Source: Roseimaritima ulvae | GTDB taxonomy: Bacteria; Planctomycetota; Planctomycetia; Pirellulales; Pirellulaceae | Length of the DNA stretch: 64,000 bases | NCBI RefSeq assembly: GCF_008065135.1 | Contig: NZ_CP042914.1 | Coordinates: 7,235,404-7,299,403, forward strand | Reading direction: 5' to 3' | In this document: piece by piece, positions 28,205 to 38,290 of the stretch | Numbering within the stretch: the first letter of the stretch is position 1 | How the letters are laid out: every line of letters starts with the position of its first letter | Translations under genes and position numbers: made by a program | The notes under the pieces: model-generated | What the model saw: the letters and a program-made list of their open reading frames with translations, nothing else | What the model was told of the DNA's origin: nothing | The model's database searches: none

Positions 28205-28715
28205 GAGTACCTCACAGGATGGACCAAAAAACCAAACCACCAACGAAAGGAAAAAAGGGGGGGGCACGCCCTTCTCCACAAGAGTGGCATGATAGTCGCC
28301 GCGGCGCGGCAAATCAACAAATTGCTGGCAGGGTTGCGCATCAGCCGCGTAGCGGCGGCAGCGTCGTTCTTAGTCCCGAAGGGACGACGGCATGTAGCCA
28401 TGGGCGCCAGCCCATGGTTGGGGGCGTCCACTCGCACCAAGCCCCAGCGGGGCGACAGCAGTCCGCGGCAGTCCCAAATTGATGTCGTCCCGTTGGGACT
28501 TTGCGGCGTGCTGTTCCTGCAGTTCCATGGGCTGGCGCCCATGGCTACATAACGCCGCCGCTTCGCGGCTAAATCGCGTGGCCGCTAGCCCTGAGCCGAG
28601 AACCGGGGGCTAGCGCCCAAACGGCTGATGAAGACACCTCATTCGCCCCGAAGCCGATGGCGGCTCCTGCCCCACTCGCACTGCGCGCTCAACAGGCGCG
28701 CGTCTGCAGTACGAT
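28205..28715. other. Intergenic region filled with palindromic repeats
   Basis: No gene. Bases ~28393-28416 (gtagccatgggcgccagccc...) and ~28525-28549 (the inverse, ending gcgcccatggctac) form a facing pair; two more diverged pieces follow up to ~28620. This repeat class differs from families A and B but shares the gtag edge. Confidence 0.65.
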
Positions 28716-36057: not shown

Positions 36058-36120
36058 GTAGCTACCGTCGCCAGACGGTGGGAGCGGCGCCGGTCCCCAC
36101 GCTCTGGCGAGCGTAGCTAC
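36058..36120. repeat. Family A palindromic repeat
   Basis: Facing pair with a 20-nt spacer, between the kinase and leuA genes. The right arm ends gcgtagctac, and its cta (36117-36119) is the TAG stop codon of leuA. Confidence 0.85.
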
Positions 36121-37646
36121 GATGCGCAGACGATCCGGTTGACGGCGTTGAGGATCGCCAGGATCGTGGATTCGACCGTGTCGGTGCTGACGCCGATGCC
36201 TCGATACGTGCGTCCTTTGTGCTCGACTTCCAGCCGCACTTCGCCTTGCGCGTCACGGCCCAAGGTGGCGCTGCGAACGCGAAAATCTTTGCACACCGTT
36301 TCGACCCCCGTAATCCGCTCAACGGCCCAAAACGCGGCATCGATCGGTCCATCGCCATCTTCGACCGTTTCGGTGAGTTCCTCGTCGCCGCTGCGAAGCG
36401 TGACGGTGACCTTGGGTTTACGGTTGTGCCCGCTGGTGACTTCAAAATCGCTCAACGTCCACAGCGGTTCGACCGCGTCGCTGATTTCCTGACCGATCAA
36501 GGCGACGATGTCGCCGTCATAGATTTCTTTCTTCTTATCGGCCAGCTGTTTAAATTCCGCAAACACCGATTGCAATTGTTCTCCGGTCAATTGGAAACCC
36601 AACTCGCGAGCTCGATCGGCAAGCGCCGCCCGTCCGCTGTGCTTGCCCAACACCAGGTCGGTCTTGGCGAAGCCCACGTCTTCGGGAGACATGATTTCGT
36701 AGGTGCTGCGTTCTTTCAGCATGCCGTCTTGGTGGATGCCGGATTCGTGAGCGAAGGCGTTGCGGCCCACGATGGCTTTATTGCGTTGGACGGCGATGCC
36801 CGTCGTGGTACTGACCAAACGACTGGTCGGCACCAAGCGTTTAGTATCGATGCCGGTGGTCAGATGAAAGTAATCGCTGCGGGTCCGCATCGCCATCACG
36901 ACTTCTTCCAACGCCGCATTGCCGGCTCGTTCACCGATCCCGTTGATCGTGCATTCGATCTGTCCGGCCCCGGCTTCGACGGCGGCCAACGAGTTGGCGA
37001 CGGCCATCCCGAGGTCGTCGTGACAGTGGGTGCTGATCACGGCTTTGTCGATGTTTGGCACACGATCTCGCAACATGCGAATCCGATCCGACACCTCGCC
37101 CGGCGTGGCGTAACCAACGGTGTCGGGGATGTTGACGGTCGTCGCTCCGGCTTCAATCGCCGCTTCGACGACACGGCACAGGAAGTCATGTTCGGTGCGG
37201 CAAGCGTCTTCGGGTGAAAATTCGACGTCGTCACAGTAGCTGGCCGCCCGTTCGACGCCCGCCACGGCTCGCTGCACGATTTCGTCCGGCGTCATCCGCA
37301 GTTTGAATTCACGGTGAATGGCACTGGTGGCCAAGAACACGTGGATTCGCGACTGCGGCGCGTGCTTGAGCGCTTCCCAAGCTCGATCGATGTCTTTGTC
37401 GTTGCAGCGGGCCAAGCCACACACGGTGACGCCGCGAACGGTTTGCGCGATCTGCTTGACGGCTTCGAAGTCGCCGGGTGAAGCGATCGGAAAACCGGCT
37501 TCGATGATGTCAACGCCCAGATCCGCCAAGGCCTGCGCCACTTCCAGTTTCTCGTTCAGGTTCATGCTCGCGCCGGGCGATTGCTCGCCGTCGCGGAGAG
37601 TGGTATCAAAAATGCGAATCTGGCGACTGGAAGGCTCGGCGGACAT
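36117..37646 (-). CDS. leuA: 2-isopropylmalate synthase
   Basis: 509 residues from the ATG at 37646, with GGAG 7 nt before it; the frame extends upstream to 37790 through the attenuator and is not coding. N-terminal TIM barrel: RIFDTTLRDGEQSPGASMN and HCHDDLGMAVANSLAAVEAG (metal-binding HxH). The C-terminal ~130 residues form the LeuA allosteric domain (VRSATLGRDAQGEVRLEVEH, GVSTDTVESTILAILNAVNR) that binds leucine. It condenses acetyl-CoA with 2-oxoisovalerate, the first step of leucine synthesis. Beyond feedback inhibition, the upstream region carries a promoter, a Leu-rich leader peptide and a terminator, so transcription attenuation by leucine is likely. The stop TAG is inside a repeat. 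Confidence 0.95.
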   Translation of the reverse strand: MSAEPSSRQIRIFDTTLRDGEQSPGASMNLNEKLEVAQALADLGVDIIEAGFPIASPGDFEAVKQIAQTVRGVTVCGLARCNDKDIDRAWEALKHAPQSRIHVFLATSAIHREFKLRMTPDEIVQRAVAGVERAASYCDDVEFSPEDACRTEHDFLCRVVEAAIEAGATTVNIPDTVGYATPGEVSDRIRMLRDRVPNIDKAVISTHCHDDLGMAVANSLAAVEAGAGQIECTINGIGERAGNAALEEVVMAMRTRSDYFHLTTGIDTKRLVPTSRLVSTTTGIAVQRNKAIVGRNAFAHESGIHQDGMLKERSTYEIMSPEDVGFAKTDLVLGKHSGRAALADRARELGFQLTGEQLQSVFAEFKQLADKKKEIYDGDIVALIGQEISDAVEPLWTLSDFEVTSGHNRKPKVTVTLRSGDEELTETVEDGDGPIDAAFWAVERITGVETVCKDFRVRSATLGRDAQGEVRLEVEHKGRTYRGIGVSTDTVESTILAILNAVNRIVCAS

Positions 37647-37745
37647 GACGGAACTCCTGTGAAAAAGCGGGTGCTGTAAAAACGCTGGTAAGGGGAAAAA
37701 CGTGATACGGAAAAACGTGATACGAGAAATCTGGCAGATACGAAA

Positions 37746-37781
37746 AAACCCCGAAGCTCGCCGGTGCGAGCTTCGGGGTTT
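37746..37781 (-). terminator. Intrinsic terminator in the leuA leader (attenuator)
   Basis: A 16-bp stem (37746-37761 with 37766-37781) and a 4-nt loop; on the minus strand it ends in a run of six T (37743-37748). It lies 100 nt before the leuA start and 50 nt after the leader-peptide stop. The first bases of its 5' arm, AAACCC (37776-37781), are complementary to GGGTTT at 37826-37831, which overlaps the leader stop codon, giving a possible short antiterminator. Confidence 0.85.
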
Positions 37782-37830
37782 CTGAAACATTTAATGTTTG
37801 ATTGGTTCGCCGCTGCGGCTGTCCAAAACC

Positions 37831-37896
37831 CTAGCCCTCACCTCCGCGGAGGCTCAATAGTGGTAGTCGTAGGGCTGGTAGCAGTTGAACGGGCAT
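37831..37896 (-). CDS. Leucine-rich leader peptide of leuA
   Basis: 21 codons plus TAG, beginning MPVQLLPALRLPLLSL and ending RGGEG. Seven residues are Leu, with codons CTG, CTA, CTA, CTA, CTA, TTG and CTC; CTA is seldom used by neighbouring genes. It lies ~28 nt after the predicted transcription start, before a terminator and then leuA, exactly the order of a ribosome-stalling attenuator. The Shine-Dalgarno is weak (GAGAAAAGA). It is too short to be noticed as a gene otherwise. Confidence 0.75.
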   Translation of the reverse strand: MPVQLLPALRLPLLSLRGGEG

Positions 37897-37930
37897 TCTT
37901 TTCTCAGCGGAAAACTTTGTCTGGAGCTGT

Positions 37931-37959
37931 AGACTACGTAGCGGATGGCTCGGAGTCAA
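37931..37959 (-). promoter_or_regulatory. Predicted leuA promoter
   Basis: On the minus strand, TTGACT (37954-37959) and TAGTCT (37931-37936) are separated by exactly 17 bp. It lies just past the stop codon of the DUF4190 gene and places the transcription start near 37924, upstream of the leader peptide. Confidence 0.6.
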
Positions 37960-37963
37960 GAGA

Positions 37964-38290
37964 CTAAACGTTGCCGGCGGCTCCGGCAGCAATGGCGATC
38001 GCGTAGAAAATCAGACCAATCACATTCAACACCAACGAGACGATGCCGATAATGAATCCAGCCATGGCGATCCCGCGATGCTGCTGACCGATCCCGGATT
38101 GGTCGATCAGCGACTTGGCTTTATTGCCGCGATAGATGGCAAAGGGAGCCAAAATAATCCCGCAACAAACCAGACTCACAATTCCTACGATCAATGATGT
38201 GACCGCCTGGCTCTTGATCTCTTTTTCGAGTTGAGGATTCTGCGGCGCCGCGCCACCGGCAGGGGTCTGGTAGGGATTGTCGGTGCTCAT
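37964..38290 (-). CDS. DUF4190-type small membrane protein
   Basis: 108 residues: a short Pro/Gln-rich cytoplasmic N-terminus, then two hydrophobic segments (AVTSLIVGIVSLVCCGIILA and GFIIGIVSLVLNVIGLIFYA) around a charged loop (IYRGNKAKSL), the DUF4190 pattern. Function unknown. The leuA promoter overlaps the region directly after its stop. A relative is encoded at 61051-61416. Confidence 0.8.
   Translation of the reverse strand: MSTDNPYQTPAGGAAPQNPQLEKEIKSQAVTSLIVGIVSLVCCGIILAPFAIYRGNKAKSLIDQSGIGQQHRGIAMAGFIIGIVSLVLNVIGLIFYAIAIAAGAAGNV

Follow-up and report, generated by a model that had tools for sequence, protein, structure and literature searches.

A probable leucine attenuator upstream of leuA in Roseimaritima ulvae and its counterparts in Planctomycetota

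The stretch of 64,000 nucleotides of Roseimaritima ulvae DNA analysed here (the window) contains leuA on its minus strand, and between this gene and the next upstream ORF of the same strand (37964-38290) lie a promoter-like pair of boxes, a short leucine-rich ORF and a hairpin with the features of an intrinsic terminator. In Salmonella and E. coli, the leu attenuator (leuL) consists of a leader peptide with Leu codons, an intrinsic terminator and an alternative pairing, and the gene regulated is leuA. The question raised by the locus is whether its parts serve the same purpose in a planctomycete. From the sequence comparisons laid out below, leuA of the window is very likely under a ribosome-mediated transcription attenuator of this classical type. 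The features are collected in Table 1.

Table 1. Features of the leuA leader region, in window coordinates.
Feature	Position	Strand	Basis
Leader promoter, -35 element TTGACT	37954..37959	-	sequence; L002 (same genus) has TTGACT-17-TAGGCT before its own leader
-10 element TAGTCT, weak, 3/6 consensus positions	37931..37936	-	best promoter in the position scan, 17 nt from the -35 element
Leader ORF, 21 codons, MPVQLLPALRLPLLSLRGGEG, stop TAG	37831..37896	-	sequence; counterparts in relatives
Control codons: seven Leu, four of them CTA (leader codons 6, 9, 11, 13)	37849..37884	-	sequence
Predicted antiterminator 5' strand (GGUG, GGGCU, GGGUUUU): final leader codons, stop codon and bases behind	37825..37842	-	stalled-state fold; own-partner complementarity across loci
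Two small hairpins (37809-37819, 37785-37799) inside the predicted antiterminator loop	37785..37819	-	folds
Predicted antiterminator 3' strand = terminator 5' arm and loop	37763..37782	-	folds
Intrinsic terminator, perfect 16-bp stem (37746-37781) and T tract	37743..37781	-	sequence; counterparts before leuA in relatives
leuA, 2-isopropylmalate synthase, the gene under putative control	36117..37646	-	NCBIfam TIGR00973, 733.7 bits vs cut-off 598.7

Most parts of the device had been named in the original prediction, and the sequence bears them out. The leader peptide of 21 codons with seven Leu codons, four of them CTA, is encoded at 37896-37831, the order of the Leu codons being CTG, CTA, CTA, CTA, CTA, TTG, CTC. 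The 16-bp terminator stem with six T, followed by leuA, is found at 37781-37746; its arms are AAACCCCGAAGCTCGC and GCGAGCTTCGGGGTTT, the loop has 4 nt, and of the six T following GGGG three are paired with AAA. The motifs GGGTTT (37831-37826) and AAACCC (37781-37776), which had been put forward as alternative pairing partners, are present as claimed. When up to three mismatches are allowed, the core pattern of the stem occurs a single time in the window. The promoter TTGACT-17-TAGTCT stood as to sequence and position; its -10 element is weak, and a simple consensus scan of the window for promoters and terminators reported neither the leader promoter nor the terminator. The former was missed because the -10 box agrees with the consensus at three of six positions only, and the latter, in our own reading, because the stem extends into the T run and too few T are left. 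The ORF 37964-38290, which matches a small membrane-protein family below the cut-off, has its stop 4 nt ahead of the proposed -35 box.

Two further observations concern the stretch between the leader and leuA. An in-frame ATG for leuA is present at 37790, and the frame is open across the terminator, giving 557 aa (window 36117-37790); automatic annotation of leuA may thus begin too early and mask the attenuator. Nearer to leuA, behind the terminator, the 16-nt sequence CGTATCACGTTTTTCC is duplicated in tandem (about 37693-37724).

The search of relatives for leader, terminator and pairing that the original prediction had set as a check turned out positive. To count as a leader, an ORF had to have 8-45 codons, carry four or more Leu within ten residues and end 5-90 nt before an intrinsic terminator; the leuA loci were drawn from related genomes, from named records and from class and phylum searches. 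For other classes of the phylum, these searches gave 64 genomes with a leuA match, and for other families of the class 90; of these, 56 and 73-74, respectively, were selected by hand and used. At the search threshold, leuA was not matched in 117 of the 196 genomes of the phylum, which are therefore uninformative on the leader. From 282 loci, two without a recognisable start motif and one with less than 150 nt upstream were dropped, leaving 279, or 271 without eight duplicates. A Leu-rich leader together with a terminator was found in 147/279 upstream regions, against 2/279 on the reverse strand and 2/279 in dinucleotide shuffles, and the same test applied to other amino acids gave at most 11/279.

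After deduplication, the device is found in 61 of the 73 regions from the order of the window (40/46 in the window's family, 21/27 in other families of the order), in 44/73 from other families of the class (f21, 22/23; f87, 7/22; f88, 10/22), in 10/54 from other classes of the phylum and in 26/71 of the named loci of several phyla, among which L072 and L083 are labelled other phyla. Twelve of the 73 regions of the order fail the leader criteria. Eight of these show nothing; L004 lies on a cut contig with the terminator present, in L028 both leader and terminator fall at the border of what was scanned, L157 shows nothing but a similar terminator at a greater distance, and L026 has a near terminator without a Leu-rich leader. 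As a side observation, the gammaproteobacterial leuA loci L083 and L088 carry a GACCCC/GGGGTT-type terminator behind a short ORF, which passes the Leu test in L083 (5 in 10) and fails it in L088 (3 in 10).

Across the loci, Leu codons peak 6-15 codons ahead of the leader stop, and a ribosome stalled there would leave the antiterminator strand free, wholly or in part. CTA accounts for 203 of 986 leader Leu codons (21%) versus 41 of 3167 in leuA itself (1%); in the window's family the proportions are 30% and 2%, and in the long ORFs of the window CTA makes up 81 of 1475 Leu codons. Within leaders, it is somewhat commoner at least eight codons before the stop than closer to it (22% vs 15%, p 0.024).

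A leader of this kind could also control leuA through translation or Rho, by masking the start of leuA or by uncovering a site for Rho, in which case the hairpin would not be a terminator. Such a mode would agree with the actinobacterial LEU element, which, according to excerpts of PMC1262725, likewise places a Leu-rich ORF before leuA, with no terminator proposed; that element is described as a pseudoknot in which the Leu codons pair with the Shine-Dalgarno box of leuA, whereas the window has a terminator and a predicted classical antiterminator. What makes control by translation or Rho very improbable is the spacing: from the leader stop to the stem-loop with its T tract it is nearly constant across loci (median 35 nt), while from the terminator on to leuA it varies widely.

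Concerning the start of the leader, the promoter scan predicts transcription of the window leader from about 37924, which is 28 nt ahead of its ATG. Shine-Dalgarno signals of the leaders, at -1.96 kcal/mol, show no excess over the -1.78 kcal/mol of shuffled sequence, whereas leuA has -4.12 kcal/mol. In 33 of 139 leuA loci, the best promoter puts the start at most 2 nt from the leader ATG, where 20 runs on shuffled sequence gave a mean of 11.4 and a maximum of 20 loci, and across loci TTGAC peaks at -36/-35 and TAnnnT at -13/-12. Some two dozen leuA leaders are thus probably leaderless, as predicted from promoter spacing; the same-genus L002, with a start at -1, is among the loci of this type, and the window is not. 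Leaderless starts were not accepted as the general rule, given that they apply to 33/139 leaders only and that the window leader is not one of them.

The pairing that would oppose the terminator was approached by folding. With a ribosome stalled at the control codons and the 3' arm of the terminator not yet made, the leader RNA is predicted to form GGUG/CACC, GGGCU/AGCUC and GGGUUUU/GAAACCC, i.e., 4 + 5 + 7 = 16 bp, in a fold of -29.4 kcal/mol as a whole. The estimate of an antiterminator of only 6-7 bp is therefore not upheld; the doubt attached to it, namely that with so short a pairing another might be used, is settled by the longer pairing, which takes in the last codons of the ORF together with its stop. 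When the ribosome is placed on the stop codon, the fold gives the terminator. Once the 3' arm has been made, the terminator is the lowest-energy fold even with a stalled ribosome (-44.5 kcal/mol), and therefore the antiterminator would have to act by forming first. The geometry fits such a course of events, the antiterminator strand being under a ribosome at the stop codon and free when the ribosome is stalled at the control codons, if a downstream footprint of about 12 nt is assumed (excerpts of PMC4833913). The leader RNA folds with z = -4.3 relative to shuffled sequences. Taken alone, the antiterminator strand of the window pairs no better than shuffled versions of it do (p 0.23), which is due to the shortness of the two strands and their richness in G or C; support for the predicted pairing is comparative and does not come from the window alone.

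This comparative support was obtained from 141 loci. In each, the segment that begins 12 nt ahead of the leader end and stops 9 nt past it was paired with terminator 5' arms. The mean was -14.0 kcal/mol with the arm of the same locus and -11.3 kcal/mol with arms of other loci, and none of 1000 permutations was as good; 0/1000 was also obtained within each of the families f1 and f21, and the own-partner effect was weak in f87 and f88 (203 and 88 of 2000 permutations). Three decoy segments gave -4.5 to -5.9 kcal/mol, with an own-partner effect for one decoy only, and in f21 only. Lineages carry differing yet matching pairs, such as CCTCAGGTC/GACCTGAGG (L216), AGGCCATAGGGG/CCCCAAGGCCT (L022) and CCTCAGG/CCTGAGG (L237), and the same-genus L002 and L003 fold like the window with changed bases. 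Considered singly, only 65/141 loci do better than their shuffled versions at p 0.05; a pairing of at least 8 bp with the C-rich arm is present in 112/141 real and 76/141 shuffled antiterminator strands, and good antiterminator pairing is absent in L005, L006, L199 and L203. The predicted antiterminator is mutually exclusive with the terminator and, as judged from covariation, conserved.

A protector hairpin, in which CTA codons would pair with the region of the TAG stop, seemed plausible in single loci, e.g., as CCCTAC/GTAGGG. For all loci together, own partners beat those of others (0/1000 permutations; f21, 46/1000), and in the window's family there is no own-partner effect (902/1000), so that a protector finds no support there. 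Compared with codon-resampled leaders, the energies are -12.2 versus -11.7 kcal/mol, and p 0.05 is attained in only 14/141 loci. The ribosome-free state of the leuA leader may be different from that of trp.

T-boxes regulate amino-acid genes in other phyla, and so the leader might be taken for a T-box or another tRNA- or metabolite-binding riboswitch with an incidental ORF. No Rfam family reaches its gathering score in the leader region, the best match having 28.5 bits where 50 are required. No T-box covariance match was obtained in the window, nor is a T-box among the 19 weak matches up to E 10 in 37600-38050; the same is true of Leu_leader (which we take to be RF00512), for which there is no match at gathering score in the window and none among these 19. 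Moreover, what is conserved is the codon content, the surroundings of the stop and the terminator, so that a riboswitch is exceedingly improbable. Elsewhere in the window, two matches to the Acido-Lenti-1 RNA (RF01687) lie on opposite strands about 110 nt apart, at 28372-28417 (-) and 28525-28570 (+).

That the leader reads an amino acid is strongly supported by cimA, the leuA paralogue encoding citramalate synthase of the isoleucine pathway, where Ile codons take the place of Leu codons with the change of pathway. TIGR00977 is above cut-off in 52/59 relatives, and the sample comprised 49 regions plus 50 added ones (30 best, 20 hand-chosen, mostly of one family), with G055 lacking the motif. 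An Ile-rich leader ORF with a terminator precedes cimA in 43/99 regions (among L354-L373 and L404-L495), with none on the reverse strand and none in shuffled sequence, and Leu leaders are found in 4/99; an example with isoleucine codons is MPVSNIVCVSSIIIICEITGSL. By group, Ile leaders occur in 13/32 regions of the window's family, 9/22 of the rest of the order, 17/20 of f21, 4/16 of f88, 0/7 of f87 and 0/2 of f91. The predicted cimA antiterminator fits its own terminator better than those of others (0/1000 permutations, 21 loci). In the genome of the window itself (L354, G000:C1:5474170-5475230; also L431), a cimA terminator lies about 118 nt before the conserved motif, and no Ile-rich leader was found; the same-genus L355 and L357 likewise gave the terminator and no such leader, and L426 has neither.

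Control operons were taken from the same 15 genomes, 13 of which possess the leuA leader. A cognate leader with terminator was found in 0/15 regions of ilvB, 0/15 of ilvC, 0/11 of trpE, 0/13 of hisG and 0/14 of leuC, and leuS gave 1/15, a weak and distant Leu ORF. These figures cover 15 of 20 ilvB loci (five below the family cut-off left out), 15/15 ilvC loci, 13/16 hisG loci, 11/20 trpE loci (four sub-cut-off homologues scanned in addition, five left out), 14/15 leuC loci (one with only 100 nt upstream) and 15/15 leuS loci (four on a shortened stretch or cut by contig ends). Apart from this, TrpE above the TIGR00564 cut-off is absent from the four genomes of the window's genus (G000-G003) and present in 11/11 other relatives searched. 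The geometry of ribosome-mediated attenuation claimed at the outset is thus supported by recurrence, the covarying pairing, the register of Leu codons, the enrichment of CTA and the lack of such a leader before ilvB, ilvC, trpE, hisG and leuC.

The same body of evidence bears on the view that the hairpin merely terminates transcription of the upstream gene (37964-38290), that leuA is transcribed from a separate promoter farther down and that the Leu-rich frame is accidental. The short distance between the upstream ORF and the proposed -35 box would suit such an arrangement, as would the variable spacing between terminator and leuA, which in some species leaves space for another promoter. An accidental frame, however, would hardly recur at a fixed place before the terminator at the observed excess over controls, nor would a terminator of the upstream gene be expected to covary with the leader end, to be accompanied by the codon bias or to have Ile in place of Leu at cimA. 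The scan detected no minus-strand promoter between terminator and leuA, the same scan that also misses the proposed one. Altogether, termination of the upstream gene is a highly unlikely explanation of the hairpin.

For the attenuator, the following sequence of events is proposed. RNA polymerase would start near 37924, and a ribosome would translate the 21-codon leader close behind it. With ample charged Leu-tRNA, the ribosome would get to the stop codon, where its footprint would lie over the end of the ORF and GGGUUUU; with the antiterminator strand covered, the terminator arms would pair and transcription would stop ahead of leuA. When leucine is scarce, the ribosome would stall 9-16 codons before the stop, at the Leu codons and chiefly at CUA. 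GGUG-GGGCU-GGGUUUU would then be exposed and pair with the 5' arm of the terminator as this is made, no terminator would form, and leuA would be transcribed. Leader and terminator would very probably sense leucine sufficiency in this way. Sequence and comparison supply this scheme with its parts, with the order, spacing and recurrence of these, with the covarying pairing and with the specificity and bias of the codons; that the leader is translated in the cell, that ribosomes stall on it, that transcription terminates or reads through, and in which direction leucine acts, is what we infer from them.

A wider reading, which is tentative and on balance somewhat doubtful, would see in Planctomycetota an old attenuation regulon of two genes, in which the leaders of LeuA and CimA each count their own end product by Leu or Ile codons. 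Translation of the leader would usually do without a Shine-Dalgarno signal and would sometimes begin at the very first base; the antiterminator strand would include the stop codon, and no protector would be needed, so that the default without translation would be read-through, unlike in trp.

In its general plan, the device is like leuL of Salmonella and E. coli, with which it would share a Leu-codon leader, an intrinsic terminator, an alternative pairing, the regulated gene leuA and CUA control codons. It is unlike leuL in phylum and sequence, with no Rfam Leu_leader match in the window; set against leuL, the planctomycete leaders have a predicted antiterminator strand that contains the leader stop codon and no Shine-Dalgarno signal beyond that of shuffled sequence. 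In the Salmonella leu attenuator, exchange of the CUA control codons for CUG lowered the sensitivity (excerpts of PMC1183508). Short ORFs also precede the amino-acid genes trp, ilvBNC, leuA and aroF of Corynebacterium glutamicum, and ilvBNC is treated as leaderless mRNA, the leader peptide being made without a ribosome-binding site (excerpts of PMC4046766 and PMC11857589). The planctomycete leaders resemble these attenuators in being short ORFs before amino-acid genes, some of them leaderless; they differ in phylum and sequences, and their leaderless starts are predicted from promoter spacing (33/139 loci vs 11 expected, the window being excluded). A survey of 2010, in the excerpts available of PMC2965389, reports leader-peptide systems in Proteobacteria and Actinobacteria only, to which its own result adds some Firmicutes. 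It had been supposed that attenuation is undescribed in Planctomycetes; in agreement with this, no description of leuA or cimA attenuators in this group is found among the matches listed in open PMC papers, a scope to which the older comparative surveys of Vitreschak and of Lopatovskaya (2010) do not belong. By all comparative signs, the leuA device is a genuine leucine attenuator of the classical ribosome-mediated kind, recurrent in Planctomycetota, with an antiterminator that spans the stop codon, leaders devoid of Shine-Dalgarno signals and an isoleucine counterpart at cimA.

Summarizing, the comparisons constitute strong comparative evidence for classical amino-acid attenuation operating in Planctomycetota. 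The cell plan of planctomycetes has been debated; if attenuation is true for this phylum, transcription and translation would be closely coupled in it. Two paralogous enzymes whose leaders differ in codon specificity would, in addition, provide a natural experiment on attenuators switching amino acid.
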